Source of the DNA: Chitinophaga filiformis
GTDB taxonomy: Bacteria; Bacteroidota; Bacteroidia; Chitinophagales; Chitinophagaceae
NCBI RefSeq assembly: GCF_900102545.1
Contig: NZ_FNBN01000002.1
Span: 1,090,264-1,154,263, forward strand
Reading direction: 5' to 3'
Length of the DNA stretch: 64,000 nt
Of this stretch, positions 7,436 through 61,400 are shown piece by piece. Position 1 is the first letter of the stretch, and every line of letters begins with the position of its first letter. Made by a program: the position numbers and the translations under genes. The notes under the pieces are model-generated. The model made no database searches. It had not been told where the DNA came from and saw only the letters and a program-made list of their open reading frames with translations.

Positions 7436-7449
7436 CCGCCCTGAAACGA

Positions 7450-11940: not shown

Positions 11941-11951
11941 GGACGTTTTGT

Positions 11952-12068: not shown

Positions 12069-12078
12069 AACTTGATAC

Positions 12079-12750: not shown

Positions 12751-12817
12751 GCACTTTTTTTAAAATTTCTTACTGTCCCGGTGAAAATTCGGATTCATCT
12801 ACCGTCTTTATACGTAT

Positions 12818-14038: not shown

Positions 14039-14199
14039 TTATAGGGGAACAGAACAATAAAATCAGGTTAAGCATTTCTTGACACCATCAATCAAACATC
14101 TAAACATCAACAACCAATCAGCGTATGTAGAAAACAGGAAAACAACCATCAGCATCAGCACAGAACAATGAACAGCTGTAGTAAGTCCTTGGTAAAAAA

Positions 14200-14231
14200 G
14201 GCAGGGCCTCAACTGCAATTGAGGTCCTGCC
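14200..14231 (+). terminator. Stem-loop between fecR and susC (attenuator or terminator)
   Basis: GGCAGGGCCTCAA (14200-14212) pairs with TTGAGGTCCTGCC (14219-14231); one G-T wobble and a 6-base loop. No T-run follows. It stands 160 bases after fecR and 63 before the susC start. It may end the sigma/fecR transcript or protect the 5' end of the susC message. The gap otherwise shows nothing coding. Confidence 0.55.
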
Positions 14232-14293
14232 ACAGGACTACTTCATTAATGTCTCTTACGTCATTTAATCAGTAAATCCCTAAATGTACAAGT

Positions 14294-43359: not shown

Positions 43360-43393
43360 CGGAGCCTGTATCAAGAGTATGATACAGGCTCTT
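43360..43393 (+). terminator. Terminator of the Ig-like T9SS gene
   Basis: GAGCCTGTATCA and TGATACAGGCTC form a perfect 12-bp stem with a 6-base loop, followed by TTTTC. Confidence 0.9.
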
Positions 43394-43534: not shown

Positions 43535-45556
43535 CTAAAACCCCGATCTGCAGCTAAGTGTCGCCTCCGCCTGCACCCTAAATCCAGGTTGAAAACCAAT
43601 TCCCTTCCCTGCATGTATCACTACATTCTGGTTAGTCATCAACGTTTTCCCTGACACCCGGATCATTCCTTCTGATCTATACAGGTATTCACTTTTGAAA
43701 TCACTGGCATTATCGAAGGGAATAGTAATGTCGTTTTTGACGTTAAACCCGGTTGGAAGAATGCTGTACAGGTGATTGTCGTTGCCGGTAAACAAACTGC
43801 CATTGGGTGCTATGATTAACCGGTTACCAGTGAGGTAACCACTGGCATCGCTAATTGGTATTGCAGGGAAAGTGGTTGCCCCTGGAGCTACCATTGTCAG
43901 AGACTGCTTTCCCGCCTCTGTGTTTAACACATAGACATTGTCATTGGCATCCATCACCAGTGCACTGGCCGGATTGAGCCCTGTAATAGCTGCGGTAGAT
44001 TGTTTGGTACCGTCTGACAAAGCATAGGCTTCTAATCGACCGTTATTAATGATAAAGACCTTATCAGTTCCTATTACAGGTTGTGAAATTATATTATCAA
44101 TACCTGTTGTAACGCTATCGATGATACGACCATTGTTAGCATTCATGATATAAAATCTGTTCCCCTTTCTCTGGTTATTGGTAACACAAAGTCTGTCATT
44201 TTTTACCGAAGGAACGGGGATGTCCGTTGTAAAAGTGCCTCCAATATTTGCATCCCATTTTAGACTACCATCAGCACTGTTCAATGCAACAATCTTTCCA
44301 TTAGCACCGTCGTAGACATAGACAATCTGTTCTGCTTCATTCAGTGCTGCTGTGCCGAACCTATTTGTGACCAATGTATAGCTCCATTTAAGCTTGCATT
44401 CCGGCTGCGGTGTATAGGCATAAAACCCTTTATCCGTTGAGACGTAAATACACCCATCGAACCCGATAACAGGAGGCGCAGTTGCCTGTGCGTTATTTTC
44501 GAGTTGCTTTGTGAACATCACCTGCAGGTTATCGGGATTCAGTACATTCAATGTTCCGCCGGTACTTCCACCTATGCAATAAATATTGCTTTTCCTGTCT
44601 GCTATCGGTCCATATTTCACCAATCCTATGACGTCCGTCGTAGTTTCTGCCAACAGGTTGCCCTGCTGAGACAATGTACGGAGCCTGGACCAGGTAGACC
44701 CTGATGCCTGATAAGCCATTACAAGCTTGTCGTCATTCAGCAAAGGATCGGATTTAATGTAATTGGCATCCACAGGACTAAATACATTGTTTAGTTTAAA
44801 CCCCGTTGCTATAGCATTGGATTGCCAGCCCAGCATAGCGGTGTGCTGCGCGTCATATTTGTATTGCGGCCAGCTTTTCTTCCTGACCTGACTAAAGGGC
44901 ATGTGGTAAGAAACAAGCAGTTTCGGTTGCCTGGACATATAGTTAGACCTTTCTGTATAGTAGCGGTATGTCTCTGCCTCTTCTGCTGCAAGCATGCAGT
45001 AGAAGTTACCCTTCCGCTCTGATACCCAGGTAGCTGCGTTTGTGATATCAGGTCGCAGGTGTATGGCCTGAGCGGTGTCGGTTTTGGCTACCAGGCTCAG
45101 GGCGATACTGGAGGCGTCTGCGATGTTTATCACCTGGTTATTCCTTGCGGCACTGAGCTCATACAGGTTTACTCCCTGTTCAAAAACGGAGGATGTATTC
45201 TTTACATTTTTCAGATAGATCAGTAGATCCACTGTGTCAATAATAGCGCCTTCTGGTATGGAAGCCAGACTGAATTGCAGATAAGCGGAGTAGTCATGAT
45301 TGACTTTCCTGCCTGCAGTAGAAGATGAGATATAGAAGTAATTATCGTCACTGCAAAACGTTTTGGTATCCGTACTGACAGCGCCATCAACTGGCCGCTG
45401 TGTTTCTGTTTTGTTTGGAAGGATTACCGCTGTTCTGGTATCGTTATAGTACTGCGCAACTACACCTGATGTAGCCAGTAGTACGATCATCATTATCAGA
45501 CTGGCCTGCACGCCGGCGGACAAGATACGTCTGAAGTTTATGAAGCTTATTTTCAT
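43535..45556 (-). CDS. Secreted DNRLRE / PQQ-like propeller protein, last gene of the DUF6603 cluster
   Basis: 673 residues with signal peptide (about 1-35; ATSGVVAQ). Residues 36-215 form a DNRLRE-type beta-sandwich (YSAYLQFSLASIPEGAIIDT, then VDLLIYLKNV). Residues 225-615 are a PQQ-like eight-bladed propeller (repeats such as GCIYVSTDKGFYAYTPQ and KVFIINNGRLEAYALSDG). The last 50 residues (IHAGKGIGFQPGFRVQAEAT) resemble the three-coathanger-stack domain of Bacteroidota secreted proteins. No PQQ enzyme site is evident, so a binding or structural role is more likely. It lies 50 bases after the kelch gene. Confidence 0.8.
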   Translation of the reverse strand: MKISFINFRRILSAGVQASLIMMIVLLATSGVVAQYYNDTRTAVILPNKTETQRPVDGAVSTDTKTFCSDDNYFYISSSTAGRKVNHDYSAYLQFSLASIPEGAIIDTVDLLIYLKNVKNTSSVFEQGVNLYELSAARNNQVINIADASSIALSLVAKTDTAQAIHLRPDITNAATWVSERKGNFYCMLAAEEAETYRYYTERSNYMSRQPKLLVSYHMPFSQVRKKSWPQYKYDAQHTAMLGWQSNAIATGFKLNNVFSPVDANYIKSDPLLNDDKLVMAYQASGSTWSRLRTLSQQGNLLAETTTDVIGLVKYGPIADRKSNIYCIGGSTGGTLNVLNPDNLQVMFTKQLENNAQATAPPVIGFDGCIYVSTDKGFYAYTPQPECKLKWSYTLVTNRFGTAALNEAEQIVYVYDGANGKIVALNSADGSLKWDANIGGTFTTDIPVPSVKNDRLCVTNNQRKGNRFYIMNANNGRIIDSVTTGIDNIISQPVIGTDKVFIINNGRLEAYALSDGTKQSTAAITGLNPASALVMDANDNVYVLNTEAGKQSLTMVAPGATTFPAIPISDASGYLTGNRLIIAPNGSLFTGNDNHLYSILPTGFNVKNDITIPFDNASDFKSEYLYRSEGMIRVSGKTLMTNQNVVIHAGKGIGFQPGFRVQAEATLSCRSGF

Positions 45557-45606
45557 TTTCAGTTATTTTTGGGGTAGATAAAGCTTTGTCTGTGTCTACA
45601 GATTTC

Positions 45607-47463
45607 TCATGGTTCGGGGCATGAATAGTAAAGTTTGGATACAGCGATATTGCCCTTTGATATATAGGCAAATATGACCGTCCATACACATCCATTGAAT
45701 CCAATTGTGGCCGTAGCAAAACTACGTACGCTCTCGAATATAGCCGGGAACTCCGGCTTTGTGACGTTAGTGATCGGGGTCCATGTATAGTAATTATTGC
45801 CTGTATCAATGCCCTTTATCCATCTGGATGTTAACTTCCTTTCACTCTCGCTGTCACTCTCACTGCCACTGATGTCGCTTGATATGATGTAGCGGTAGGT
45901 ACCACCGGGGTCGGTATTGCTATTTTTGTTTGTCCTTAAATAACAGATAGAGGCGCCTGCAAGCCAGTCTTCGCCATAAGAAAGATCGGCTGTACCATTA
46001 CTGTTCCTGACTTTCTTCCAGCCGGACGACGATCTGTATACCCATAGATCATTGAGCGTGCTGCCATTATATCTGGCAGCCCCTCCACCAATCCAGATGC
46101 TTTTGTTCTTATCGATGTCAGTTTGCACGGTGACAGCAAACTGGCAACGTTTAGGGAATGTAATATCTGTAGGTACTGCTATCCAATTGATACCATCAAA
46201 GCGCCATACATCATTCAGCCCGTTACCATTTTTATCTGCCCCGCCAATCACCCATATGTTGTCGTTACCATTTGCATCAGGATAGACTACACATGCATGC
46301 ATACAACGTGGCTTCATCGCCGCAGGCAGTAAATCCTCGCGGAATCCCGTGTGGAGATTGATTTTCGAGATCGTATTTTTACACACGCTGATGTCTGCTT
46401 TACTGCCACCTACAAAGTACAGTTCTTCGTCTCCGAAATGCAGACAGGGACAATGAGCGAGTTCAGGGGGAATCGTCAGCATCACAGGTACCCTATCACC
46501 ATTGCTATTTATAACTGTGATAAAATGTGGTCTCCAGCTCATACCATCGCCTGACTTCCAAACGGATGGTGGTGCAGCAGGATCTGTCTTTTTCTGCATA
46601 ATCGCCCACATATTATCATCAGATTCATTTAACACAAGGTCGAGCAAGGTATACTGCTCCATGACATAGATTACATTGCCGTCTACCTCTGTTCTCACCT
46701 CCCAGGTAAAATTATCCAATACGAACCATGCAGGAGTATCGGTTGTAATAACATCAGCCACTGTATTCTCAAGGGCTTCCATTGCGCCATTCCTGGCGTG
46801 CAGATAAAAGGGTGGACATGGGGATGATCCCGGACTGCCCAGCCCAAAATTGCTACTGAAGCTGAAGGGCTTTGTTTGATCTGTAACGGTTTGAAAGTGC
46901 ATAGTTTTTCCCAGGCTGTCTTTCAATTCACAGGTACTGGCATCGATCGTCTCGTATGTAATGGTGATATCATTGCCTGGCCTGATAATAGAAGGATTGA
47001 TCCTGAAACTGTTAATAACAGGCTTCTTCTCAGACACAAATATGGTTTCGGGAATGTAAGTACCCGCAATCAGCACGTTAAATTTGTTTTTCAATTTAAA
47101 GGCGATTTCTGCAGATGGCGGAAACTGCTGATCTTCTTTCTTGTATAGGTCATTGATGCAGAACTCGATCCGGTTATTATAATCTGTAAGGCTGATTGGT
47201 ACATCAAAGCTAAACCTGATCTGACCGGCAGACAGTCCGCCAATAGGCCCTACGCTGCTGTGAGAGGAGTTCGCGTTCAAAGGCGTCGTAATGGCCGGCT
47301 TTACACCACTCCACTCCACAATGTCCGCCAGCATCAGCAGATCCACGTCTATATGCTTAATCAACGCGCTACTGGGTGGATCGTCACACGTAACAGCAAA
47401 ACTTACATCTGCACTCGTGTTTGAAATCGTATTGTCAATTATGATTAAACTGAATTGGGGCAT
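45607..47463 (-). CDS. Kelch-repeat protein, DUF6603 cluster
   Basis: 618 residues, no signal peptide. An N-terminal beta-sandwich (about 1-135; IRFSFDVPISLTDYNNRIEF) and an Ig-like region (about 145-215; PVINSFRINPSIIRPGND) precede a kelch-type propeller (about 245-610) with motifs VWVIGGADKNGNGLNDVWRF, IWIGGGAARYNGSTLNDLWV and LYFVGGSKAD. Kelch propellers mediate protein contacts. It starts 20 bases after the 1200-residue gene, in the same strand array, and so probably works with those proteins. Export route, if any, is not apparent. Confidence 0.75.
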   Translation of the reverse strand: MPQFSLIIIDNTISNTSADVSFAVTCDDPPSSALIKHIDVDLLMLADIVEWSGVKPAITTPLNANSSHSSVGPIGGLSAGQIRFSFDVPISLTDYNNRIEFCINDLYKKEDQQFPPSAEIAFKLKNKFNVLIAGTYIPETIFVSEKKPVINSFRINPSIIRPGNDITITYETIDASTCELKDSLGKTMHFQTVTDQTKPFSFSSNFGLGSPGSSPCPPFYLHARNGAMEALENTVADVITTDTPAWFVLDNFTWEVRTEVDGNVIYVMEQYTLLDLVLNESDDNMWAIMQKKTDPAAPPSVWKSGDGMSWRPHFITVINSNGDRVPVMLTIPPELAHCPCLHFGDEELYFVGGSKADISVCKNTISKINLHTGFREDLLPAAMKPRCMHACVVYPDANGNDNIWVIGGADKNGNGLNDVWRFDGINWIAVPTDITFPKRCQFAVTVQTDIDKNKSIWIGGGAARYNGSTLNDLWVYRSSSGWKKVRNSNGTADLSYGEDWLAGASICYLRTNKNSNTDPGGTYRYIISSDISGSESDSESERKLTSRWIKGIDTGNNYYTWTPITNVTKPEFPAIFESVRSFATATIGFNGCVWTVIFAYISKGNIAVSKLYYSCPEP

Positions 47464-47483
47464 AATATTATTGGGATTAAATG

Positions 47484-50400
47484 TTATTGGTTATTGGTTG
47501 TGGGCAATAGTGACAGATAGCCTTCCTGTATAACTTGTCCGTTAAGAGAGCCTGTTTGTAATTGCGTTTGATTGTCCATATTTGTTTCCTGCCACCCGCC
47601 TGTTGTTGTTTGCTGTTTTAATACCCACTGGCGGTCGGGTTCTGCGCCAAGTGGTATAAAGGGTTCCGTCGATGTACCTAAGAACGGCGCTGTAAGCATG
47701 TCCAGTTCCATGTGCTTCAAACCATCCGTGTAACTTGCCGGCAGATCAATGAATTTAGCCGGCAGTATCCCAGCATTTGCCTGCACCCCTCCTCTGGGGT
47801 CCATCAGTAGCGTAATACCCTGCCGGTCGCTCGCTGCGGCAAATGATAGCTGTATATCATCACTGGTGAAATACCCGCTGGCAGGTTTAGGCATTCCATA
47901 AGGAATATGCATTTCTTCAAAGCCTTTTCCTGTGTCTTTAAAATAGCCTATCAATCCATCTTTGTTGTTACGGCTATCGCCTAAGGCTATGGGAAATTGC
48001 AGGTTTGCCAGACCGGGCGGCTGTACTTTGGTATCTTCAGTAATGCTATGCTCATAATGTTGTGGCTGGGCAGGCAGTCCCTGTAATTCCAGTTGTAATC
48101 CTGCTCTTACAAGGGCCACTGGTTGTCCCATTAACCCTGCAATACCAGGTGCCTGTTGCCCTCCGGAGGTAGAAAGGAAAAGAGCTGTACGATTGCAAAG
48201 CTCAAACAGGGACCGTAATGCGGCACCTCCGGCAGGTTGACCATTATTGTCACGGAAGCCGAGCAGCCCCTTTACAAAGTCCAGCAGGTAGCCGTTGCTG
48301 ATAGCCGTTTCCGGCGTCTGATCATTGGGAGCGCCTGGTGGATTGCTCCATTGCAATTGTACCCTTCCTTCAATAGTTACCATTTTCAGTGCGCCACATT
48401 TTATACCGTTGGTGGTATATATATCCAGCGACTGGTCCAGGTGATCGGGCAGCAGCCAGCCGCAAACAGGGTTTGTAGCAGGATCACTGCTGCTTTCTTC
48501 CAATGGTCCGGGCTGCGCTGTACACCACCTGAATAAGAGTCTGGCAGGCTGTATGACCCGGGGCGAGAGCGTTATCTGAACACCATTGTTCAACTGGTTC
48601 AGGTGCTCCGCGATGTGCAAACGCCCTTTCTGAATAATATTGCCGCCGCTATCAGTATCAATGATCTTTTTTACCTGTCCGAAAGCGTCGACCATCCACA
48701 GCCGCGTAAACCGCAGGTGCCCTGCCCGGAGAGGAAAAAAGTTAGGAACCTGCCCCGATTTTGCATGTACATCGGGAAAAAAGTAGGCTTCTCTGGAGAT
48801 GTAATTATCCAGACTGTTATCCGGCATAATTACCCAATCTGTATCTGCCGGATTCCGGAGCAGCGGTATATGTATCGTATGGCCCCGCATCAGCAGGGAA
48901 TCTGAAAATGAAGCAAGTGCCTGCGAGAGATGCGCGCCCGCAGGTACGTTTTCAGGTAGCCTTTGCTGCAATAGATTATTCACCATATCAGTAAGCAATA
49001 CTTTTCCTGCATACTCGATCGCTTTTGTTGTATCAGGAGCAGCGCCTTTGTATTTGTATTGTTTATTCTCCCATTGCCAGTCCTGTTGCCTGAATTGCCA
49101 TTGTCCGTTTTCAACAGTGTAAGAGGGGATGAACTTAACATACCAGATCAGGTATAAAGGTGTCCAGGGATGTTGCCAGCGCTGGATGCCCCGTGTTAAG
49201 AACAGTTGGGAAAGCGTATCAAGGCTCCAGCTCTGTGGCCTGATGGGTGTGCCTCCACGAAGTACCACCGCTTTAAATTTATCAGTCGCTGCTCCTGCCG
49301 TAAGCAACAGCATATTTTTGAGATATGCTGCCAGTGCCTGGATGTTGACGTTATTACCAGGATTATCCTTATAATATTGCTGTGCCCACACCGTCGTCCA
49401 TGATGGATCAAACAGGATGGCCTCATAGTAAAGCTGGCTGATGAGGCTTATATTGTTTTTTAGCGAACCCAGTTCTTTAAGTCCAAGGGTAATATTAACT
49501 GCGGAGATAGTACGCTCACCTGCAGCATTATCGTTCAATATCATGCCTGCAATGATCTCAGGCGCTGTTCGACATGGCAGTTTATCGCCTTTGCCGGGAT
49601 TTTTATATTTTGATGATGTGGTTACCCCAGGACCAGAAAACAGCAGGGAAGGATCGTTTGGCTGCCAGTAACGCGGCATTTTCTTCTCTACAAGTTCAAA
49701 CAGTGGCGCCTTGCCTCCTACCCCAATAAAGGCAGGCATCTGGTTAATAATGGCCTGTTGTGCAGTTACAGCAGCTTTGTGTTGCGTGATGGCCGTACTA
49801 ATTACATCTATATCATTTTTTAAAAGGTCACGGCGGGTAGTCAGACTTGCCAGCAATGCCTGATCACCATCTGTATCAGCCATGATCATTTTATCGGTCA
49901 AAGCCCTGAATTCGAGCATCAAAGATGTCTTCTTCTGTATAAGCCTGTCTGCTGCCTGTTGTTCGGTATTGATCTTTTTAAATGCTGCTGAAATACCAGG
50001 ATTAGCATCAGGTTCAGGGAAGACGGGTATTGATTCTTTTCCTTCTTTATCGCTGGCATCCTTTTCCACATGTTTGATCTCCCATAGCGAACCGCCATCA
50101 TAAGCAGTGTATGCGTGACTGTCTATCTGGACATCCATTTCTGTAGCATCTACGGTATCTTTAAGGATATCATAGAAATAGCCGCTAAGCAATTTCTCGG
50201 CAGCGCCGGTTTGCCTGGACAACTGTGCACTTTTAGCTTCGATGGCAGTCATCCCTACGCCGGTATTCACAACGGCACTGCTGACCGGTAGTCCGTAAGT
50301 TTTTGCGGGGTCCCAGTTCACACTGTGTATGAAACCATGACACATGATAGAATCAGGAAAGTTCGCCGTTGCGTTACCAGGTAACGCCCACTTGCTTTTA

Positions 50401-51077
50401 ATGCTGTTGATGATAAGCGCATCGCTGTTCGTGAGGGGCTCAATAGCAGAATCAGAATACCAGCCTGTTACCAGGTAAGAAAATGAAGTTGCGGTGGTAT
50501 CCATACCAGCTAAGTCATCCCACAAGCCAAACACATTGCGGCAATACTGATAAATACCGGCAAAGCTGGCATTACCCGGCGCCATTGCTGTCAGCGGAGT
50601 AGTGCTACGGGGCTGTTCAACCGTCCAGTTCTCAAGTACGGTAGCCTTGCCTATATTATGTGAAGTGGAATAACTACCATCCGGATTTTGTACCGCCCAG
50701 GGACTTTTATTTGATATAAAATCCCCGATGTAATCACTTTCCAGCAACCATTTTTTGATGACAGGCTGATTATTTACAAGATGCGTTCTGATCACCAGCC
50801 ATCTGTTGGGTACAGCGGGAAACAGGGCTTTTCCATCCTTCTGTATACCATTGGTAAGAGCGGCAGGCAGCGCCCAGTGCAGGTGAATGCCTTTTTCACA
50901 AAAGCCTCCCTGCCTGAGCTCTTTCAGATCGCCAGGTTCAAGAAAGCTGCCCAGACGGGTATAGAGGCCGTCATAATCTATATAAAAGTTCTTCCAGTTG
51001 TAGGCGGTATCTTTAGCTGTGTTTTTGTCTACAATAAGCGCTTCTATTTTTACCGGCACTAATATTTTCTCACTCAT
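47484..51077 (-). CDS. Giant protein of unknown function (about 1197 residues), DUF6603 cluster
   Basis: Starts at ATG 51077 (MSEKILVPVKIEALIV); the frame extends to a TTG at 51086. No signal peptide or membrane helix. The N-terminal part has GIHLHWALPAALTNG and VPNRWLVIRTHLV, which look like conserved motifs. A coiled coil occurs about residues 365-445 (EQQAADRLIQKKTSLMLEFR). The rest is mixed alpha/beta without a family I can name. It lies 12 bases after the 747-residue gene and 20 before the kelch gene, so it belongs to one operon. Confidence 0.75.
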   Translation of the reverse strand: MSEKILVPVKIEALIVDKNTAKDTAYNWKNFYIDYDGLYTRLGSFLEPGDLKELRQGGFCEKGIHLHWALPAALTNGIQKDGKALFPAVPNRWLVIRTHLVNNQPVIKKWLLESDYIGDFISNKSPWAVQNPDGSYSTSHNIGKATVLENWTVEQPRSTTPLTAMAPGNASFAGIYQYCRNVFGLWDDLAGMDTTATSFSYLVTGWYSDSAIEPLTNSDALIINSIKSKWALPGNATANFPDSIMCHGFIHSVNWDPAKTYGLPVSSAVVNTGVGMTAIEAKSAQLSRQTGAAEKLLSGYFYDILKDTVDATEMDVQIDSHAYTAYDGGSLWEIKHVEKDASDKEGKESIPVFPEPDANPGISAAFKKINTEQQAADRLIQKKTSLMLEFRALTDKMIMADTDGDQALLASLTTRRDLLKNDIDVISTAITQHKAAVTAQQAIINQMPAFIGVGGKAPLFELVEKKMPRYWQPNDPSLLFSGPGVTTSSKYKNPGKGDKLPCRTAPEIIAGMILNDNAAGERTISAVNITLGLKELGSLKNNISLISQLYYEAILFDPSWTTVWAQQYYKDNPGNNVNIQALAAYLKNMLLLTAGAATDKFKAVVLRGGTPIRPQSWSLDTLSQLFLTRGIQRWQHPWTPLYLIWYVKFIPSYTVENGQWQFRQQDWQWENKQYKYKGAAPDTTKAIEYAGKVLLTDMVNNLLQQRLPENVPAGAHLSQALASFSDSLLMRGHTIHIPLLRNPADTDWVIMPDNSLDNYISREAYFFPDVHAKSGQVPNFFPLRAGHLRFTRLWMVDAFGQVKKIIDTDSGGNIIQKGRLHIAEHLNQLNNGVQITLSPRVIQPARLLFRWCTAQPGPLEESSSDPATNPVCGWLLPDHLDQSLDIYTTNGIKCGALKMVTIEGRVQLQWSNPPGAPNDQTPETAISNGYLLDFVKGLLGFRDNNGQPAGGAALRSLFELCNRTALFLSTSGGQQAPGIAGLMGQPVALVRAGLQLELQGLPAQPQHYEHSITEDTKVQPPGLANLQFPIALGDSRNNKDGLIGYFKDTGKGFEEMHIPYGMPKPASGYFTSDDIQLSFAAASDRQGITLLMDPRGGVQANAGILPAKFIDLPASYTDGLKHMELDMLTAPFLGTSTEPFIPLGAEPDRQWVLKQQTTTGGWQETNMDNQTQLQTGSLNGQVIQEGYLSLLPTTNNQ

Positions 51078-51089
51078 GACCAACAAGGT

Positions 51090-53333
51090 TTAGTCTTTGT
51101 TCCAGTTATCAAAAATATCGAGAGTGTATATGATGGGGCTTTCCAGCAGCTGAAAAGCAAGTTCTGCGGAGGTACGAACCTGTGTACCTTTTTCCGTGAT
51201 GCTGGCAGCTATATTTTTAAGGTTTAATACGCCGTTGTTAACTGACAGCGTAACGGTTGTTTGTCCTACGTTACCCGCTTTATCCCGCAGCGCTTTCTGA
51301 AATATGCCATTACCGGCATCAACGCCAAAGTGGATACCTTCCGGTGGCTGTATGAATGACAACTGCTGCACTTTCCCGGAGAACACGCAAAGCTGTATAT
51401 CGTCCGACAGGCGTTCGATCTTCAGCGGATGCTGCATCCAGCTGCCTGTTTCGTCTTTCGCAAAGATCTTAATGCCTTTCCAGCCTGATACCAGTTGTGA
51501 GCGCAGGAAAAAGCCTGTAATATGGCCCTTTATTGTTTTAGGCAATGGTACGGCTTCGCCTTCTGCACCGGGGATAAAGGAGGCATTCGCTTTATTGACC
51601 ATGATATTCTCGGGTAAAAAGCTGCCGTCCTTCAGCATATTAAGCAGCGCAACAGAATCTTCCGTAGCTACAATACTTAAGGCTCCGCCTAACAGGGCTT
51701 CTATCCAGTCATAATCTATATAGAAAGTACCAACAGCTTCCTTAAGGATTGTTCCTCCTTCACGGCTGATGAGATACTGCTCATGTGGTATGAGGTAATT
51801 CACAGGCACGCCTTCCAGTAGAAAGAGTTTACCCAGCCAGTCTGTGATGGTCTGCGGTATCTCGTGCATTGCGCCTCCGCTTCCGGCTATGTTGTTCAGC
51901 TGTTGCTGAATATCGTTCGGAGCATTAGAGAAGGGCACCGGCGTCTTATTAAACTCGTTTCCCATATTGTACCAGCTGGCGAGGAAACCTTTCATCTTGT
52001 CTTCCAGCGTTGCCGTTGCCGGTAATTCATCGCTGAACTCAGCGGGGAATAGGTTGGATATTTGCTGCATGGCGGCTGTTTTAACCACCTTTCTTTTCCC
52101 CTGCAGCTTCCACTGATAAAGTGCAGTGTTAAATGTTTTGTCTTTCAAGGCCAGCAAACGTCCGAGTTGCCATGCTGCAGCGTAAGAGATATCTACCAGC
52201 CCTGTGAGGTGATCAAAGCGAAGCGCTTCATCCGCCGTTTTATAGACTTTAGTTTTCGGATTGGCAGGCAGGAAGTTCGGATTGAAAGGACCGCGGTACC
52301 AGGAGTAGGTCTGTGCACCGTTGCGGGTAACATGCGGCAACAATGTATATCCGTAGTCATACGATTTTTTGACAGCCTCATTGATTCCTGCCGGATAATT
52401 CATTTTGAAGGGACTTACATGCAGTCCTTCACATAGCTCCAGAAAGTTCTTACCAGCTGCTACTGTAAAACTCCATGATTGCAGCACGACAAGCCGCACT
52501 TTGCTTTTCCCTTTGTTTTCAATGTACTGGTTGACTGTATAATAATTGTGATAGCCTTCCAGTGATACAAGGAACACTGTGTTCCTCACGGCACTGGATT
52601 GATCGGCAGCTCTTACCGGGAGCCGGTTGCCCATGAGTGTAGCAAAGTATCCCTCATCCTCTATAGATGCACGTTCCTTGCTTTCATCCACGGTTACCTT
52701 TCTCACATGTGCCAGATAGGGCAAATCATCTATGGCAGGCGCTACCTGCTTAAATAGTGGCAGGGGCACATCTATTACATCATACGTTGTGTTGATGTCT
52801 TCCCAGGGAGCCAGTTTAGGATTTTGCCCGTTCACAATGTCAGTTGATATCTCCGGTACAAATACGTTTGTTCCGGTATCCTTCAGGCTTTTCTTCTCGG
52901 GTATGATAGCATCTGCTGCATTGCCGCGTCCTCTCATCTCATCTTCACTAAATAACAGCAATGCCATCCAGGGTGCATGCCGCACAGGATCATTGAGTTT
53001 AAACCTTGTATTGCTGTGCAATTCTCCATCTATGGTACGCTCCCAGGGCAACGTACGACGGTTGAAGACGATTTGCGGCAATGTGGTCTCAAAATGGCCT
53101 GTCATATCCCTGGGAGGATACCTGGTATAAACAGTTGCCTCATCAAGCATAAAGCGCGGCGCGCCTACCCATACTTTCTTGACAGCAGTTTCAAAATCGG
53201 CGTTGCTGGCCTTGGCTACATTTACTGACAGATCAGCGCTTACAGTATATTCTCCGGCCACGAGTTGTGGCAGGCATTCATGGATGAATGCCAGTTGTTC
53301 CGGATCTTGTAATAGTTTTTGCTCAGTTGCCAT
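51090..53333 (-). CDS. Large protein of unknown function (747 residues), DUF6603 cluster
   Basis: No signal peptide. N-terminal segment LAFIHECLPQLVAGEYTVSA, then mixed alpha/beta sequence with VRHAPWMALLLFSEDEMRGR and a C-terminal beta-rich stretch (about 610-747). No known domain recognised. Its start codon lies inside the end of the upstream DUF6603-like gene (11-base overlap, 53323-53333), so translation is coupled and the two products are likely made in a fixed ratio. Confidence 0.75.
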   Translation of the reverse strand: MATEQKLLQDPEQLAFIHECLPQLVAGEYTVSADLSVNVAKASNADFETAVKKVWVGAPRFMLDEATVYTRYPPRDMTGHFETTLPQIVFNRRTLPWERTIDGELHSNTRFKLNDPVRHAPWMALLLFSEDEMRGRGNAADAIIPEKKSLKDTGTNVFVPEISTDIVNGQNPKLAPWEDINTTYDVIDVPLPLFKQVAPAIDDLPYLAHVRKVTVDESKERASIEDEGYFATLMGNRLPVRAADQSSAVRNTVFLVSLEGYHNYYTVNQYIENKGKSKVRLVVLQSWSFTVAAGKNFLELCEGLHVSPFKMNYPAGINEAVKKSYDYGYTLLPHVTRNGAQTYSWYRGPFNPNFLPANPKTKVYKTADEALRFDHLTGLVDISYAAAWQLGRLLALKDKTFNTALYQWKLQGKRKVVKTAAMQQISNLFPAEFSDELPATATLEDKMKGFLASWYNMGNEFNKTPVPFSNAPNDIQQQLNNIAGSGGAMHEIPQTITDWLGKLFLLEGVPVNYLIPHEQYLISREGGTILKEAVGTFYIDYDWIEALLGGALSIVATEDSVALLNMLKDGSFLPENIMVNKANASFIPGAEGEAVPLPKTIKGHITGFFLRSQLVSGWKGIKIFAKDETGSWMQHPLKIERLSDDIQLCVFSGKVQQLSFIQPPEGIHFGVDAGNGIFQKALRDKAGNVGQTTVTLSVNNGVLNLKNIAASITEKGTQVRTSAELAFQLLESPIIYTLDIFDNWNKD

Positions 53334-56300
53334 TGTCCGCTATATTTTCGTTGCCTGTTTCGGTTTTATATTGGGGTAAGCCACCTAGTTGTACGATCAC
53401 CGGATCGGCGCCCAATATCGCTATCCATCCATGCAGCTTAGATGCTGTTACTGTTGTTTCTTCAGATTCCTGCACCTGCAGGGCTGCCGTGATAATAGCC
53501 TGTCGGTTGGCAGTGATGACAGCATCGTCCATTTTGTTATTGATGATAGTTTTTATGGGATCGCTATAAGCGGTATTATCCGGACCAGTCAATGCGGCTA
53601 TATAATTCCAGCGTAATGATTCATCTACTGCTCTGAACTTTCCATTGAGATCAAATCCGGGAGGATCCACTGGTGCGGGCGCTTCTCTGGCGGTAATAAC
53701 AACGCCCTTAAGCGCATTTTGTAGCACTTTCACATCTTCCGGTGTGTTATTGTTACCACTCCCCTGCTGATTGCTCCACAATGATCCGGGTACACCGGCA
53801 GTATAAGTGGAATAGTGAGGTGCAAAGTCGCCACTAAGCGGCTGACCGTTCATCAGTACCTTCACTGTCAGTGCAGATGCGAGGCTTGTTTCCTGCATGG
53901 GACGTATACCAAGGGTGCGGTTACGATCAGCGTATTGCAGTGTTCCACTGTCTGTCTGCATTTTTGAGTCGGCGGATATTTCGTTCACTACTCCTGACAG
54001 ATCCGGTACTTTTACCGTCGTCACCGGTAAAGGAATATCTACATTTATCCTCAGCTGATGTGGGTTTACAAGCAGGTATTTGATCTCTCCTGCACTTGTA
54101 CGTACCGTATATTCATTGATAATACCGGAACCGATGATGATCTCCGGCGTAATTCTTTTGTTGGTATTGACAGGTATAAATTGTTGTTTGAATGCCGGCC
54201 AATCCAGCTTCTCTGCTTCCTTCTTAGTGGCACTGCCAAAAGGTATGGTGAATGAGAATATACTCCAGTCCACAAAGGCTTCACCCGCAAATGGTGGTCC
54301 CCAGATATGCAGCTCAGCACCCATTTCAAGTTTAAAATGTACTGTAAAGAGCCCCATATCTATATTGGCGTCTATCTTTACCCTGATACCCATATCGATG
54401 GCGTATTGGAAAGGCGCCCAGGCAATGAGCATGTCTGCCCACAGGGCTATGCTGGCCGTCAGGAAACTTAGACTGAAGGTTACTTCCAATCGGCCACCTG
54501 CCATGATGCAGCTTGGTGTCAGGGCATAATACAATCCTCCTTTAATTTGCAGTTCCTTCGATAATTTCCAGTTAAGACCCAACCGGTCCACATCCGGATA
54601 ATGGGATGGCTTATTGAATTTGGGATGATATCCTCCCAAAGTAATGACAAAATCTCCTGCATGCGGTCCTTTCACCCATGCGTAGAAAGCAAAGCCTCCT
54701 GTGAGTTTACAGTTCTTATCCAGCACATATGAATTGGGTGTCAGCATGGCTTCTACCGCAATCACATCGCTATCCGGACCAAAGCTGGCTCTTACGGCCA
54801 GTTCTATGTAGGCAATTGCTTTATCCTTTGTTGGCCATGCAAGAATAGACAGGCCCAGAATGGCAAATTCGGTTCGTGTACCAAATTGTGCCATTACAAG
54901 TACGAATGATTCTATGAGCTTGAAGGAGGTAAATTTTATACCTACTGCCAGCCAGTAATCGCCGGGAGATGCAGGTATCCATTGCTGGCTTACCAGTTCC
55001 GCCAATATATCATTCAGTGTTTTAGCGGGATTGGGGTTAAGCGCCATTGCGACCAGCGGGAAGGTATTGACTTCCCGGATAGCAGGTACTTTCACCCTGC
55101 GGTTGTAACCAAAGCCTGCTGCTATGCCAGTTACAAAAAAGAAGGCTGGTCCGCCGATGGCTCCTGCATACATCGCATAGATGAATAAGGATACTGCACC
55201 ATCAGGTTTAGGCTCTATCAGCTTGCTGTAAGCGCCAATACCGCTGACGCTGAATTTTGCTAATGAAAGTTGTGCAGATCCATAATAAGAATATTGCTCC
55301 ACACCGGGTAACGGCGTTGCTCTCAGGAACATGCCGCTGATGCGGATAGGATCTTTGGTGTAAGACAATCCGATGCCATCTATATAGAACTCAGGCAGCG
55401 CGGGTGGGAATTTCCATTCCAGTTTAAAGCCCAGCCCCAGGCTTATCATCTGCATGCCGATGCCTGCCATCAGCATGGAAGCATCCAGCAGCAGTACTAC
55501 TCTACCTTCATTGTACATGAAGCCAAGACGCTGTAGTGTTACAGGACCAATTTTCTTGTCTACTTTAGTCCATTTTGCTTTTGAGGCTACTTCTCCCGGA
55601 AGCGTGCTTACTACTGCTGTACTACTGTCATTTCCTCCGTTTGGTGGCGAATAAGTTTTATCAGGTCCATCATTCAGTACATAATATTCTTCACGACCAT
55701 TGATCAGCAGCTGGGCAGAGACGTTAAAACCTTTAGTGATCTCCACTTCAGGCATACCTGTAAAACGCTGCAATTCTGCCTGGGTAAAGGTACCGCTTGC
55801 GTACAGGGCCAATACTTCCCGAAAAGCAAAAGCATCGTCTTTGGCAAACAATGATCCAGCCAGTGGCAGGTCTTCGAGATTAAGGTGAAGGCCAGCGCCC
55901 AGCCCTACAAGCAAGGCGGTACTTCCATCTTTCGCTTTCCTGTATAATAAAAAGGCTTTAAAATCATTGAGTGTCAGTGTGGCATCCGGAATAGTGTTAG
56001 GATTGCTGAAAACGCTGCCGGCTATATCTTTCAGATTGATAGTTGTTATACCTGTATGGATGTAGCCTGCATACATGTACCAGTCATCTGCTACTTTCTG
56101 ATAACTCAGGAGGAACCGGTGAGTACCAATACGGAGCACACCGCCAAAAGTGAATGCACTATCAGACCCTTCCACTTTTTTATAGGCTGCCTGCAGGGTG
56201 GCGTCAATCTCTTTACCGTTAATGGTAAGCCGCGTCTCGAATGAGATACTGAACTCACTTGAACGGGCACCAGTACCATAATTAACAGATAGCGCCCGGA

Positions 56301-56535
56301 TAGCCGGGAGCTGATCCAGAAAACCGGGGATCTCTGTTTTGTCGCCGGGAGCAAAGGCTTTGAGCAGTGCCGCTAAACTGACACCTCCTGGATCCTGGGT
56401 CTTTAGCGCGGCATAAACTGATTTATCAGTACCATTTATCCGAAGGCCCATTGAAATGTCAAACTCAACCGCATTGGTATCGCCAATGCGGGTTGAGCCT
56501 GATAGATCCAGTAAAAAATTGGATGATGCTGCCAT
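53323..56535 (-). CDS. DUF6603-like giant protein (1070 residues)
   Basis: No signal peptide. The first 300 residues form repeated amphipathic beta strands (FLLDLSGSTRIGDTNAVEFD, FEVREV-like segments, LVGLGAGLHLNLEDLPLAG). Residues about 340-800 match the DUF6603 type: EFYIDGIGLSYTKDPIRISG, FFFVTGIAAGFGYNRRVKVP and WAPFQYAIDMGIRVKIDANI. The alternation of glycine and hydrophobic residues suggests a large beta-barrel or beta-solenoid. The family is uncharacterised. Downstream overlap with the 747-residue gene and the same-strand array mark it as the core of the cluster. Confidence 0.75.
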   Translation of the reverse strand: MAASSNFLLDLSGSTRIGDTNAVEFDISMGLRINGTDKSVYAALKTQDPGGVSLAALLKAFAPGDKTEIPGFLDQLPAIRALSVNYGTGARSSEFSISFETRLTINGKEIDATLQAAYKKVEGSDSAFTFGGVLRIGTHRFLLSYQKVADDWYMYAGYIHTGITTINLKDIAGSVFSNPNTIPDATLTLNDFKAFLLYRKAKDGSTALLVGLGAGLHLNLEDLPLAGSLFAKDDAFAFREVLALYASGTFTQAELQRFTGMPEVEITKGFNVSAQLLINGREEYYVLNDGPDKTYSPPNGGNDSSTAVVSTLPGEVASKAKWTKVDKKIGPVTLQRLGFMYNEGRVVLLLDASMLMAGIGMQMISLGLGFKLEWKFPPALPEFYIDGIGLSYTKDPIRISGMFLRATPLPGVEQYSYYGSAQLSLAKFSVSGIGAYSKLIEPKPDGAVSLFIYAMYAGAIGGPAFFFVTGIAAGFGYNRRVKVPAIREVNTFPLVAMALNPNPAKTLNDILAELVSQQWIPASPGDYWLAVGIKFTSFKLIESFVLVMAQFGTRTEFAILGLSILAWPTKDKAIAYIELAVRASFGPDSDVIAVEAMLTPNSYVLDKNCKLTGGFAFYAWVKGPHAGDFVITLGGYHPKFNKPSHYPDVDRLGLNWKLSKELQIKGGLYYALTPSCIMAGGRLEVTFSLSFLTASIALWADMLIAWAPFQYAIDMGIRVKIDANIDMGLFTVHFKLEMGAELHIWGPPFAGEAFVDWSIFSFTIPFGSATKKEAEKLDWPAFKQQFIPVNTNKRITPEIIIGSGIINEYTVRTSAGEIKYLLVNPHQLRINVDIPLPVTTVKVPDLSGVVNEISADSKMQTDSGTLQYADRNRTLGIRPMQETSLASALTVKVLMNGQPLSGDFAPHYSTYTAGVPGSLWSNQQGSGNNNTPEDVKVLQNALKGVVITAREAPAPVDPPGFDLNGKFRAVDESLRWNYIAALTGPDNTAYSDPIKTIINNKMDDAVITANRQAIITAALQVQESEETTVTASKLHGWIAILGADPVIVQLGGLPQYKTETGNENIADNGN

Positions 56536-56630
56536 AATTCTTACTACCGGTTAAGGAATAATTTCCCAACAGGTCAATTATTCTGCAGAAGTGGTAACAT
56601 TAGTGTTCAATCATTGTAAGCGTCGGCGCC

Positions 56631-57353
56631 TTAGCTTTTAGGAGCTTCCAGGGTTGGATTGGTAGCTATGTTGGTGACTCTGAAGCCTACTTTCTTAATA
56701 GTGAAAGCGCCAAACTTGATGGTCTGTCCTTCTTTTGATGTCACCCAGAAATCAAAAGTCTTCTGTGTGATGTTGTAGTAGAAGTCTTTGAACAGGATGA
56801 TAAAATCTTCCGGTTTCTTGCTTGTACCGTCTTCACCTTTTATATCTGGCAGTTGTGGTGTAGCGGTATCGCCGGTGTTTCTTGTGATCCAGTCAATGAG
56901 TACTTTGAGGTTGATCTGGCTTCCTTCTGCTTCATCTGTTTTGTCGCTGAAGTCGATGATCCAATCGCCCTTGGTATTGAGTTTGGTCACCAGGTTGCCC
57001 ATTCTTACATTCAGGATGGCGGCAGCAGCGTCGTTGCCTTCAGGACCAATGGCAAGCTGTCCGTTTATTCCTACGCTGTATTTTGATGCGTTGGCGAGAC
57101 CACTGATAGTAACTGTAGTACCGTTCAATGCAAAAGTTCCACCTACTGCACGGTAGACCACTGTGGCGCCATTTGCCCAGGTTACCTGAATGTTGTCATT
57201 GGCAGTAGCGAAATTCGTCCATGTAGCTGCTGTTACATTTTCCGCTGTGATCTTTTCAGCAAAAGTGCCATTACTGTCAAATTTGACAAGTTCATTAGCA
57301 TCTGTGATTGCAGGAATGTTGCTGGAAAGATTCTTAATTTCTGTAATTGTCAT
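56631..57353 (-). CDS. Unknown 240-residue protein, DUF6603 cluster
   Basis: No signal peptide. Asn/Thr/Gly-rich beta sequence (VYRAVGGTFALNGTTVTISG, KYSVGINGQLAIGPEG) followed by KGDWIIDFSDKTDEAEGSQI and a C-terminal beta segment. The composition resembles bacterial structural or fibre proteins, but I recognise no family. It lies 57 bases after the collar protein and 95 before the DUF6603-like gene. Confidence 0.65.
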   Translation of the reverse strand: MTITEIKNLSSNIPAITDANELVKFDSNGTFAEKITAENVTAATWTNFATANDNIQVTWANGATVVYRAVGGTFALNGTTVTISGLANASKYSVGINGQLAIGPEGNDAAAAILNVRMGNLVTKLNTKGDWIIDFSDKTDEAEGSQINLKVLIDWITRNTGDTATPQLPDIKGEDGTSKKPEDFIILFKDFYYNITQKTFDFWVTSKEGQTIKFGAFTIKKVGFRVTNIATNPTLEAPKS

Positions 57354-57410
57354 TTTGTTTGAGTTTGAGGTTAATATGTATGTGTGGGTAATACTTGTAT
57401 TGCCGGGTGT

Positions 57411-58118
57411 TTAGTATTTAATTATATAGTTGAGGGCTATCCATTTAGGACGATTTCTATCATTTGAAGGCGAGGATGGCATTGTATAGGCAGGTAAGTT
57501 TACCACATGCCAGTGACCGCCCGCATTTTCTGTAGTTTGCTTTGTAACATCCTGACCACCTGTGTCTATACCAGTGTAACCTCCCTTATCCAGCCCTCGG
57601 TTATACCAGGTGCGGGGAAAAAAGTGATTGTGGTCGCCTGCCCATTCAGTACCAAATGATCTTTGAGGCATTGTAACTGAATGACTGTGTTGATCAGGAT
57701 AACCCGATGTACCCACTGGCTCCCACGGAGTGGCTCCCTGGACAAAGGATGCACTAAGATCAGGCACTTTGAATGTTGCGGTAGTCCCGCCATTGCCATA
57801 CGTGTAGCCTATAGCAGCAAAGAGATCTTTCTGATCTCCGCTGATCGAATAGGCAGCTCCATTACAGAGTAACCATCCGGGAGGAGCAGTAGTCCCTGCA
57901 TAAGGGAGAACGGTACCTACAGGCATAACCACGCCTGTTTTGTCTACGAATCTGCCATTGGCTTTTACGTTTCCATCTACTTGTAGTTTTTCTGTGGGCG
58001 CTTCGGTGCCAACACCTACATTTCCATTGGGTAGAATTTTTAAAGCGTCAGTTTGTGCGTATAGGTTACTGATCGCTGCAATGCATACGAATGCTGTAAT
58101 GAATAGAGAATGTTTCAT
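57411..58118 (-). CDS. Secreted phage tail-collar-domain protein, first gene of the DUF6603 cluster
   Basis: 235 residues with signal peptide (about 1-21; ISNLYAQ). An N-terminal repeat typical of fibre proteins (ILPNGNVGVGTEAPTEKLQV, about 28-48) precedes a tail-collar domain (about 65-124; PVGTVLPYAGTTAPPGWLLC, then KVPDLSASFVQGA). The C-terminal part (DHNHFFPRTWYN, NDRNRPKWIALNYIIKY) is the usual end of such proteins. Collar domains occur in phage tail fibres and also in exported bacterial proteins; with no tail genes nearby this one is not phage. It opens the seven-gene array. Confidence 0.85.
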   Translation of the reverse strand: MKHSLFITAFVCIAAISNLYAQTDALKILPNGNVGVGTEAPTEKLQVDGNVKANGRFVDKTGVVMPVGTVLPYAGTTAPPGWLLCNGAAYSISGDQKDLFAAIGYTYGNGGTTATFKVPDLSASFVQGATPWEPVGTSGYPDQHSHSVTMPQRSFGTEWAGDHNHFFPRTWYNRGLDKGGYTGIDTGGQDVTKQTTENAGGHWHVVNLPAYTMPSSPSNDRNRPKWIALNYIIKY

Positions 58119-58499
58119 TTTAATTTGGGATTAAGAATAAATATGATGTCCAGCTATTGCCTTCAATGCATTTCCGACAGGAGCTTGCTTTCGGGAACAG
58201 GGATACACTCCGGATCTGTAAGAACAGATAGCAGGAACAACAATAGTGTACAATTATGTTGAAGTGTTACTTTGGGGTGTAACATAACGGGGTCAATTAG
58301 TTATTTTGTATTTAAAGGGTAACTGTAAAATATGGGTGCAAATGTAAAAACTAAAACATGATACCACAAAAATTTCTTGATAAACGGCAGATATCTCATG
58401 ACGCCCGGCGTCCTAAAGCTGAAAGACGTAACTATATACACGTCAATGGGGTCCTTGCTGCGCGCAGTAAGAACCCCATTGGACATTTGGCCTTAAGGA
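58119..58499. other. Intergenic region upstream of the DUF6603 cluster
   Basis: 381 bases between two minus-strand units. It holds the GH127 terminator hairpin (58445-58480) and the presumed promoter of the cluster. I found no consensus -33/-7 pair for the cluster, and no small gene. Two short overlapping frames here are only reflections of the hairpin palindrome. Confidence 0.5.
58445..58480 (-). terminator. Hairpin after the arabinofuranosidase gene
   Basis: AATGGGGTCCTT (58445-58456) pairs with AAGAACCCCATT (58469-58480), one mismatch, loop of 12 bases. It lies about 20 bases after the stop. No T-run, so strength is uncertain. Confidence 0.6.
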
Positions 58500-61400
58500 C
58501 TATTTTAACTCAACATCCAGGTAAACAGAATGACGCCCGTATGTTTCATAAAATGGTTTAAAAACCACGCCATCTATCGTGAATTGCAATTGTTCTGGAT
58601 CGCCTTTAATAGACTTACTTATATCTTCTGCATCCAGGGTTATTTTACGCCAATCCTGTCTTGCTTCAGGTTCCTGGGCAGCCAGCAATATTGGTCCGTA
58701 AAACAGGCTGGCGATATTCTGTTGATCCATCACCGGATCGAGGTGAAACTGGAACGGCATTTTCAATTCTATCACATCGCCATCTTTCCATTGACGGCTT
58801 ATTTTCAGGTAGCTGCCTGGCTTAGCTGGAAGTGCCTGTTCCTTACCGTTGATCTTTACAAAGAAGCCTTTGGTAGCCCAGCCAGGCACACGCACATTGA
58901 TATCAAACTTTCCACTTCCTTTGATAGTAAGACGCGTATTATCTTCCTTTGGAAAATCTGTTGTCTGTTCTATCGTTACCCCGCGTTCTGTCCATTGTAG
59001 TGTTGAGGGTATGTATAGATTGACATACAGCGCCTGGTCATCTTTACTTTTAAAGTAAATTGAATGCTGGAACTTGGTATTACTCTCTAACGCAGTACCG
59101 TTACAACACGTAAAGCCTGTCATATCCGGATTGCCAAATTGTTTGATAGACCCTGGTCTGAGCGGTATATGGTAGGTATTGGCAGGAGAATGCTCGGCTA
59201 CAGAAGCCAGGATATCATTGTACAATGCACGTTCGTAATAGTCCATTAACTCTGCCCGCTGATCGAAGAGAAACAGGTCACTTGTCAATTTTAGCATATT
59301 GTATGTGGCACAGGTCTCGTTTTGTCCGCCGGAAGAGAAACCGTTTTCATACAATGTTGCCGGCTGACTGATAAAACATTCCGCATTAGCGGGATTACGT
59401 GCTCCTGCTACTCCTCCAATGCTGTACATATAGTCGTTGACAGCCTTATACCAGAAGTTATCGGCCACTTTGTAATATTCCGGATTATTCGAAACGCGGT
59501 ACATTTCGATACTTCCCACAATCTGCGGTATATGCTGATTGGCATGCAGTCCACGGAAAACATCTACATTTTTCGCCAGCCCATGCGAATGTGCGGTATC
59601 ACCAAAGAAGACCCTGATGTTATCAAATAACTGTGCTGTTTTCAGGTATTTTGATTCACCGGTAATGCGGTACATACGGGCCATTGCCTCATTCATGCCT
59701 CCAAATTCACCTGCTATGTATGTATTCCACATCTTTATGAGCGTATCCTTAGGCAAGCGGCTCAAACGGGCATATACCCAATCACTCATGCCCGCAGCTA
59801 TATCAAGCGCTTTTTTATTACCACTCACTTCATATACATCCATTAAGCCAGCCAGAATTTTGTGCAATGTGTAATAGGGAGCCCAAATCTGGTTCTTCTG
59901 TCCTCCATACTTAGCGCCGTGTTCCAACATGATAAACTGATCCGGAGGATATGCGCTGATGAATCCTTTCCCCCAGTTCCAGTAATCGGTACGAATACCC
60001 TCATCACTCAAATCTGAATCATAATTTGATTTTCCGGGACCATGCGGCACTGCTGTCGGATCGGACACATAGGCGCTACCTGCTGTTTTCGGCTTTCCGG
60101 ATAATTGTGATAACTCATAGAGCGTATTCACCATATACTCCATTTTCTGAGAGAAATTAGCCTGCAATGCCTTGTCATATCCTGTGCTGGCATAAGCCTG
60201 TGCAATTGCCGTAAGGTAGTGACCTGTAGCATGGCCTCTTAATTTAGTATCCTTACTGTCCCATACGTCCAGCGGCTTTGCGCCTTCAGGTTGCTGCTGA
60301 CCAAAAGCATGGCGGAACATATACAGAAAGGAGTTAGGATCAGTGGTAGCTAAGGTTTTTATAAACTTATCCCGGTTTTCGGTAAACTGGGTTTCATGGC
60401 CATGGGCATCGGCTTTTAAGGAAACCTTACCTAAATCAAATGCCGCCAGCTTTAAATCGGGCGTAGCTGACTTGTCGGACTTTTTAACCGTAACAAACGC
60501 CTTTGGCTGAAAATCTGTTCCGGCAACACGTCCTGTAACGGTATAGCGTCCTGGTTTAAGAACAGCGTTATTGTCTATTGGAAAAGGCCAGAGCACACGT
60601 ACTTTCGGACCTTTCATACCATTCTTATATGTTCCCTCTATATAACTGGGTAGTCGTGGCAAATTTCCCAAGGCTGTTTCCACTTCTACATCGGCTACAT
60701 GAACCAAATAAGCATTATAAAGCTGCGCCTGGGTCGGAGAAAAATGAGGGAGGTCATCTTCATGTTTACCTGTGGTATTCACCACGCCTTCATTGATACC
60801 TGTCTGGGAATTGTTATAGATCCCTGCAACCTGTCTCCTGCTCAGCGCAATACGATAAATACGAAAATCGTGTATCATTGCATTGAGATAGGGATCGCCT
60901 GGTAATAAGGACTTACCGATATAAAGCTGTCTCTTCTCTCCTGCCCGCTGACCAAATACGGCCGTTAATTCAGACGGGATATCTTTCGCCTCACCCACCG
61001 GCTTACTGTCAACATAGGTGATCATAGATTTTGAAGGAATATCTATTACTATGGCAAGATGCACCCACTTGTTTAATTCTATAGCCGGAGAAACCGCTCC
61101 TTTTTTATTACCCTGTCCCGCTGTTATTAACGCCTGATAGCCTTCCTGCGCATTTGTACCAACAGGAGCTGCAAAGAAATGTTTGGTATCATCTTCTCCG
61201 AAATCAAAAAATCGTTGGCCTGATTGCTTCGAACGCAGGTAGATCCATCCTGATATACTGAGCGATTCTATATCTGATAATGCTTCTCCCGGGAGCTTAA
61301 CAAAAGCATTGTTATTTCCGGGAAGCGACAATACCTTTCCAAAACGTTCGTCGTTAACAAATTTGATTTCATCCCCCTGGGATTTGCCGTGCAGATTATT

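Follow-up and report, generated by a model that had tools for sequence, protein, structure and literature searches.

A seven-gene array of Chitinophaga filiformis built on a DUF6603 protein as the local version of an apparently undescribed modular system

Introduction

Extracellular contractile injection systems and Tc complexes are large assemblies with a receptor-binding part and a separate cargo, and we infer a likeness between them and the gene set described here. This gene set lies in a stretch of 64,000 nucleotides (hereafter, the window) of the 8.6 Mb genome of Chitinophaga filiformis (contig NZ_FNBN01000002.1; C11:1090264-1154263 in our numbering), where seven minus-strand open reading frames (ORFs) fill positions 43535-58118 and encode, in the order of transcription, proteins of 235, 240, 1070, 747, 1200, 618 and 673 amino acids (aa). 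We call the third to fifth D, M and L, and the second U240. D belongs to DUF6603 (PF20248), a Pfam name that gives no function or system, and is here the center of a conserved gene set. A literature search on DUF6603 and PF20248 found no paper, and the array is apparently the local version of a widespread, cross-phylum modular system that has not been described previously. Polymorphic toxins are a further system for comparison, for which PMC3482391 names the immunity protein as a key feature.

Results

Co-occurrence of D, M and L

D, M and L were used as three separate queries against 296 Bacteroidota genomes. D was found in 13 genomes (12 over the cut-off) and M and L in seven each, and these were the identical seven genomes, all D-positive. 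M adjoins D in all seven. L lies behind M in six of them, including the window's genome, and in the seventh (G065) it precedes D in both loci, with one or two genes in between. The profile of M matched 10 of 292 genomes and D was located beside the match in every one, while the D-positive genomes G080 and G211, both with the type B described below, and the weak match G108 were absent from the M-profile matches. D, M and L are thus one conserved core. A first-pass annotation made from the sequence alone had proposed a single system and had asked whether homologues of the 1070-, 747- and 1200-residue proteins co-occur elsewhere; they do, in clusters, and the proposal is supported for D, M and L by this co-occurrence and clustering, which also exclude chance adjacency of the three.

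A wider set was obtained by a DUF6603 scan of named genomes, where the best 80 of 255 relatives gave 79 loci. Together with the seven loci of the genome search there were 86 (L049 and L118 represent one locus, and both are kept in the counts). Since D was the query by which these loci were obtained, independence can be claimed there for M and L alone. Our choice of ORFs retained D in 85 loci (that of L094 was dropped, yet is present in the DNA), M was next to it in 78 and anywhere in 79, and L was present in 77. Seven loci have no M next to D: L090, L092 and L115 show no gene behind D in the fetched DNA, and L101, L116, L121 and L132 have another ORF directly behind D. The hosts belong to Bacteroidota, Balneolota, Cyanobacteriota, Actinomycetota, Chloroflexota, Pseudomonadota, Acidobacteriota, Myxococcota, Bacillota, Verrucomicrobiota and KSB1, and the nearest relatives of the window's D are from Chitinophaga. 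D, M and L were also found on plasmids of Paenibacillus polymyxa, Streptomyces and Embleya (11 plasmid records have D, and four were examined). For the large alignments the proteins were filtered by length (63 of the 64 listed in A4, 57 of 57 in A5 and 54 of 69 in A6, each plus that of the window).

The possibility that the system is a phage or prophage element was rejected on the lack of homologues in phage records or confirmed viral contigs: D had no tblastn match in 50,697 phage records, and IMG/VR pattern scans with M and D gave none that was confirmed. On the P. polymyxa plasmid (L137, 1-5526), baseplate-V-like and DUF4280 genes lie about 9-13 kb upstream of D. In six loci (L045, L047, L069, L097, L100 and L135), M is encoded by two adjacent ORFs, and this split suggests a domain boundary in the protein.

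Slot upstream of D

Two arrangements were observed that share one circular order, slot-D-M-L-binder (type I) and L-binder-slot-D-M (type II). As judged from the encoded proteins, the position just upstream of D is an exchangeable slot, often with a predicted enzyme. A slot gene was counted when it was within 300 bases of D and encoded at least 150 aa, giving 71 slot proteins, from which 12 U240 and two fibre proteins were removed before the Pfam count. The remaining 57 matched Lactamase_B (17), Exo_endo_phos (4), Lipase_3 (3), DUF4135 (2), and subtilase (S8), trypsin and HNH (one each). Roughly half of the scanned slot neighbors are therefore named enzymes, indicating a modular system beyond what the first-pass annotation had seen. 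In high-GC loci, ORFs on the opposite strand probably mask some slots (L087, L102, L124 and L128).

The metal motif HxxxDH was present in 20 of the 22 slot proteins of the metallo-beta-lactamase (MBL) cluster and GHSLG in all four of the lipase cluster. The DUF4135 proteins are LanM-like, and the endonuclease/exonuclease/phosphatase (EEP) label of L120 and L135 depends partly on motifs. An NCBIfam scan of ten slot or neighbor proteins gave sub-cut-off HNH-type matches for L083 and one chance row only. In all 71 loci whose slot gene lies within 300 bases of D, the interval between the two has no ORF of 70 aa or more; this interval has no sign of an immunity gene, genes on the other sides not having been tested as such. 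An LCAT-like gene lies 404 bases upstream of D in L101.

Another slot cluster, c5 (for example L048, 5500-11917), consists of giant proteins of 932-1076 aa with the conserved stretch CHLxGHGDGGxExxGNFVSGSxHCNTEQ (70% consensus). The single member scanned had no Pfam or NCBIfam match. The family is reminiscent of non-specific endonucleases, a likeness that depends partly on motifs, and to our eye the slot protein of L050 has the look of GIY-YIG, an assignment that we do not claim.

Exchange of the slot and the N-terminal extension of D

When the 17 slot labels are placed on a FastTree phylogeny of 86 D proteins, they need 25 changes, compared with a minimum of 16 and a shuffled mean of 39.7; the labels are therefore clustered, yet have moved. 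The starred branches force at least six changes for MBL, four each for c5 and EEP, and three for lipase, on a tree made by a quick method and with long-branch warnings. An exchange can be seen directly when L074 of Microcystis novacekii is compared with L093 of M. wesenbergii. Identity is 96.5-99.7% for the six proteins that flank the locus downstream, 82% for M, 74% for D from residue 324/386 onward and 56% for the first ~600 residues of the binder, while the slot gene (MBL versus c5) and the N-terminal part of D fail to align, indicating that these two were swapped together.

This N-terminal extension of D is 366-617 residues long (724 in one case) in MBL, c5, lipase, EEP, LanM and HNH loci, and about 210-220 residues in c7 and trypsin loci. 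When 49 extensions were compared (L118, identical to L049, was omitted), similarity at E ≤ 1e-5 was found in 93/249 same-slot pairs and 60/927 different-slot pairs, and it was commoner for same-slot pairs in every bin of core identity holding both kinds of pair. None of 5000 label shuffles, which ignore relatedness, reached the observed association. Because the extension partly co-varies with the type of slot, it may dock the slot enzyme.

Binder proteins

One binder of at least 380 aa was scanned per locus, that is, 45 of the 76 family members. These matched LamG_3 (24), S74 chaperone (11), LamG_2 (6) and Collar (2), and kelch, B_lectin, PLAT and Gp10_C were among the single matches. Judged by these domains, the putative recognition proteins (LamG lectin, S74 tail-spike, tail collar and kelch) are a second exchangeable part. 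No similarity of the recognition family to M or to L was detected by hhalign. A collar-like ORF was seen also behind the DNRLRE/PQQ gene near the end of L061, L062, L063, L064, L066, L068 and L070, and therefore the array may be longer in those relatives.

Predicted location and structure

According to a crude hydrophobicity rule, signal-like N-termini occur in 0/87 M, 1/87 D, 0/13 U240, 0/8 c5, 0/4 lipase, 1/21 MBL and 1/16 kelch proteins, compared with 7/14 PQQ proteins and 19/74 of the binder family, 17 of these in loci of the window's clade. By the same rule only the collar and DNRLRE/PQQ proteins, the first and last of the window's seven, have signal-peptide-like N-termini, in agreement with the signal peptides annotated at first.

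The AlphaFold2 model of D is a long beta-meander (pLDDT 79.2, pTM 0.61), and its strand alternation is 2.61 versus 1.49 when shuffled. Its Foldseek matches include LptD, ushers, SlpA and ApoB100, which are generic long beta-meanders with TMq of at most 0.16 among those listed. M was modeled as a confident, mixed alpha/beta fold for which no structural match was recognised in the PDB, and Foldseek found none in the viral set at 1e-3. The beta-rich composition assumed at first thus holds for the DUF6603 protein by its model, and partly fails for the 747-aa protein. In profile searches M matched no PDB sequence, and the rows for L, mostly coiled coils, and the lysenin row for D were at chance level. 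An outer-membrane beta-barrel was considered for D and rejected; the hosts include Actinomycetota, Bacillota and a haloarchaeon, and 1/87 D ORFs is signal-like.

Array in the window

The features of the array are listed in Table 1. Our ORF calls agree with the seven minus-strand genes, sizes and tight spacing first described; in the order of transcription the genes are separated by 57 and 95 bases, an overlap of 11 and gaps of 3, 20 and 50 bases, the gap between M and L becoming 12 bases if L starts at the internal ATG. The collar, DUF6603, kelch, PQQ and DNRLRE assignments were matched by Pfam or NCBIfam, the DNRLRE match (32.4 bits) being under the cut-off of 34. D scores 483.6 bits on DUF6603 (cut-off 27) and is a full family member. 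No ATPase, sheath, tube or baseplate was found among the seven proteins in Pfam, NCBIfam and PHROG, in line with the initial description, and the 240-, 747- and 1200-aa proteins have no match at 1e-3 in Pfam, NCBIfam or PHROGs.

Table 1. Features of the array in the window (positions in the window)
Feature	Position	Strand	Evidence or remark
Promoter-like site TTG-N20-TACATTTG, Bacteroidetes-type	58339..58369	-	upstream of first gene (collar)
Tail-collar / fibre-stalk protein, 235 aa, signal-peptide-like	57411..58118	-	Pfam Collar 8.5e-18; PHROG tail collar/fibre families
U240, conserved 240-aa protein	56631..57353	-	family c4, 13 loci including the window
D, DUF6603 protein, 1070 aa	53323..56535	-	Pfam PF20248 8.6e-145, residues 325-787
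M, core protein of 747 aa, overlapping D by 11 bases	51090..53333	-	no recognised fold
L, core protein of 1200 aa, probably starting at an ATG three codons in	47484..51086	-	
Kelch beta-propeller protein, 618 aa	45607..47463	-	Pfam kelch families; family c2, 16 loci including the window
DNRLRE / PQQ-like propeller protein, 673 aa, secreted-looking	43535..45556	-	PQQ_2 3.2e-11; DNRLRE 9e-8 (NCBIfam)
Bidirectional terminator-like stem, 12-13 bp	43361..43392	.	3' end of array, behind last gene

The promoter-like site has no second minus-strand match within 43535-58520. Terminator-like matches as a class barely exceed those in shuffled sequence (20 versus 13.4, standard deviation 3.9), and weaker minus-strand stems occur within the array itself. 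The positions of the promoter-like site and the terminator-like stem are compatible with a single transcript, and fit no more closely than that.

All seven genes are clear in the window's order in L058, L059, L062, L063, L066, L067 and L070. The collar match is weaker in L061, no collar was seen in L065, and the end of the contig or locus truncates L060, L064 and L090. Because the same genes occur in the same order in other genera, the array is more than chance. The collar protein appears to be a module of the recognition type, with counterparts that adjoin the core in relatives, and the kelch protein is the recognition module on the L side. The family of the 673-aa protein (c3; 14 loci including the window) sits behind the kelch gene or an L-kelch fusion. 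This fusion was found among 11 ORFs chosen for their odd lengths, and is a single 1799-aa ORF of Chitinophaga sp. CF118 (L068) with L at residues 2-1187 and kelch at 1211-1779. L068 belongs to the sister branch of the window's clade, and its slot holds c5.

In the window's clade, D starts at the core (extension of 0-12 residues) and U240 is directly upstream of D in 13 of 13 loci, including the window. In hhalign the U240 profile matched the final ~125 aa of the MBL-type extension (E 1.9e-4, prob 48), which is the part joining the core of D, compared with E values of 0.046-0.91 for seven profiles without the extension. These alignments are suggestive only of the possibility that U240 is the split-off N-terminal extension of DUF6603 proteins.

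Upstream of the array, the window has a gene for a GH127 beta-L-arabinofuranosidase with a LamG domain on the same strand (58500-61568), and it also contains a GH16 gene. A comparison with the flanks fetched for five relatives (L058, L059, L060, L066 and L067) gave no match to GH127; it is unlikely on this ground that the array is part of a neighboring polysaccharide locus, and the GH127 gene is probably outside the array. Four other flanking genes of the window do match in L058, so that the wider neighborhood is partly common with Chitinophaga ginsengisoli.

Remote type B

A second, remote-type DUF6603 system was observed in the same genome as the window (L051; C11:1405000-1424999, locus 148-14676), in the order PhoD-like phosphatase, D, 1039-aa protein and 1829-aa protein. 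The family of the 1039-aa protein is distantly homologous to M by hhalign (prob 93.4, E 2.5e-7) and, in the case of one member, by HMMER (6.4e-7), while hhalign detected no similarity of the 1829-aa family to L, or of M to L. A membrane-like stretch was seen by eye in the 1039-aa protein of L051. Two other type-B loci have subtilases upstream of D. The type-B set of DUF6603, M2 and a third protein was also found on a plasmid of the archaeon Halalkalicoccus (L139, 12645-29254); this third protein, annotated as a BGTF surface domain protein, extends over at least 3076 aa of the stretch that was fetched.

Discussion

The core is constant, the enzyme is exchangeable and its putative docking part partly co-varies with it, the surface binders are exchangeable, and no gene was found between enzyme and core. 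Together these features suggest that an enzyme would be delivered in an aimed way, against non-kin or an outside substrate. We favor, with a confidence that falls slightly short of even, the reading that the system is a sheathless enzyme-targeting particle, comparable to a toxin complex or to an injection particle without sheath, tube and ATPase. Core, slot and binder proteins would come together in the cytoplasm as a single large particle, with the beta-meander of D as scaffold, the N-terminal extension of D docking the enzyme, M bridging D and L, and L holding the recognition module. The particle would exit by lysis or by an unrecognised route, and the recognition module would bind a target surface and bring the enzyme there. 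In the window's clade, U240 may replace the extension of D, and the recognition side would be enlarged by the collar, the kelch protein and the secreted propeller.

Several observations weigh against such a particle. About half of the 57 slot proteins match no named family, and the slot enzymes could as well serve metabolism or defence. No enzyme was recognised in the window's clade, whose version may serve adhesion alone or may have an unrecognised activity, and U240 did not match the c5/lipase-type extension (E 0.11). The covariation of extension and slot is partly phylogenetic. Without MBL pairs, the same-slot similarity is 14/39, with 0/10 in one identity bin, EEP same-slot pairs have a similar extension in 1/10, and 60 pairs are similar in spite of different slots. 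The window's collar and last protein look secreted, unlike the core, and this fits one particle poorly; moreover, 12/61 L ORFs have signal-like N-termini (several of these are from high-GC loci, where the first start codon is possibly wrong) and 12/88 D ORFs have a membrane-like stretch. The AlphaFold models cover D and M of the three core proteins, as single chains.

The same location data bear on two other explanations. A regulated enzyme scaffold or a defence complex inside the cell, in which a ligand sensed by the lectin, kelch or tail-like module switches on the slot enzyme, is fairly unlikely in our judgement, although the core, the slot enzymes and many binders are without signal-like N-termini. 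One MBL tested weakly matched LmuA and RTasMBL of PADLOC, and the slot families MBL, HNH, EEP, trypsin, subtilase and lipase overlap with defence effectors; however, none of the seven window proteins matched PADLOC-DB (2023) at 1e-3 and none has a Pfam ATPase or NTPase. The exported look of the collar and the last protein also argues against an intracellular role, and lectins and phage tail pieces usually face outward. These two secreted-looking proteins, together with LamG, the kelch and PQQ propellers, DNRLRE and the nearby GH127 and GH16 genes, would instead suit an assembly for cell-surface adhesion or polymer degradation, with lectins for polysaccharide and enzymes for its breakdown, exported by an unseen route. 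This we regard as quite unlikely, since few signal-like N-termini were found on D, M and the slot enzymes, GH127 was unmatched in the flanks fetched for the five relatives, and the named slot enzymes are not glycosidases.

The fold matches of D, on the other hand, raise the idea of a lipid-handling complex, where an amphipathic beta-meander wraps or carries lipid in the manner of ApoB or LptD and the slot enzymes act on lipids. The matches to LptD, ushers, SlpA and ApoB100, the class 3 lipases in the slot and the LCAT-like gene near D in L101 are consistent with it, but it is improbable, given the generic nature of those matches and their low TMq, the minority of lipid enzymes among the named slot enzymes and the Gram-positive and archaeal hosts. 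That the genes are unrelated neighbors without joint function is hardly credible, given the clustering over about ten phyla, the M profile, whose matches in 292 genomes all lie beside D, and the L-kelch fusion, and for D, M and L it is refuted.

Whichever reading holds, a Pfam family of no assigned function and two large unannotated families are linked here into one cross-phylum system, and a cargo slot and a targeting slot make its function testable. If the delivery of an enzyme proves false, what remains is still a conserved gene set of wide distribution, in which at least one protein (M) has no recognised fold. It is possible, though doubtful, that this is a new class, a sheathless, ATPase-free particle in Bacteria and Archaea with an exchangeable enzyme docked on a beta-meander scaffold by the extension of D and an exchangeable lectin or phage-tail-like aim; it would then be one more general solution next to Tc toxins and contractile injection systems.

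Compared with known systems, the seven window proteins include no sheath, tube, baseplate or ATPase of contractile injection systems, and no Pfam match to TcA, TcB or Rhs-TcC of the Tc toxin complex. Collar and S74 chaperone modules are shared with phage tail fibre and collar adhesins, and the difference is that D and M had no confirmed match in the phage and viral sequences searched with them. With polymorphic toxins as described in PMC3482391, the system shares a constant core with exchangeable cassettes, including enzymes of nuclease, protease and lipase type, and a patchy spread. It differs in that the enzyme is encoded by its own ORF in front of D and is not the C-terminal domain of a carrier, no known export module is present, and no ORF of at least 70 aa lies between slot and D. 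Because the enzyme is not a C-terminal domain and no sign of an immunity protein was found between slot and D, we did not file it as a polymorphic toxin. If the reading as a sheathless enzyme-targeting particle is true, the system would be a modular machine for protein targeting of a new kind.

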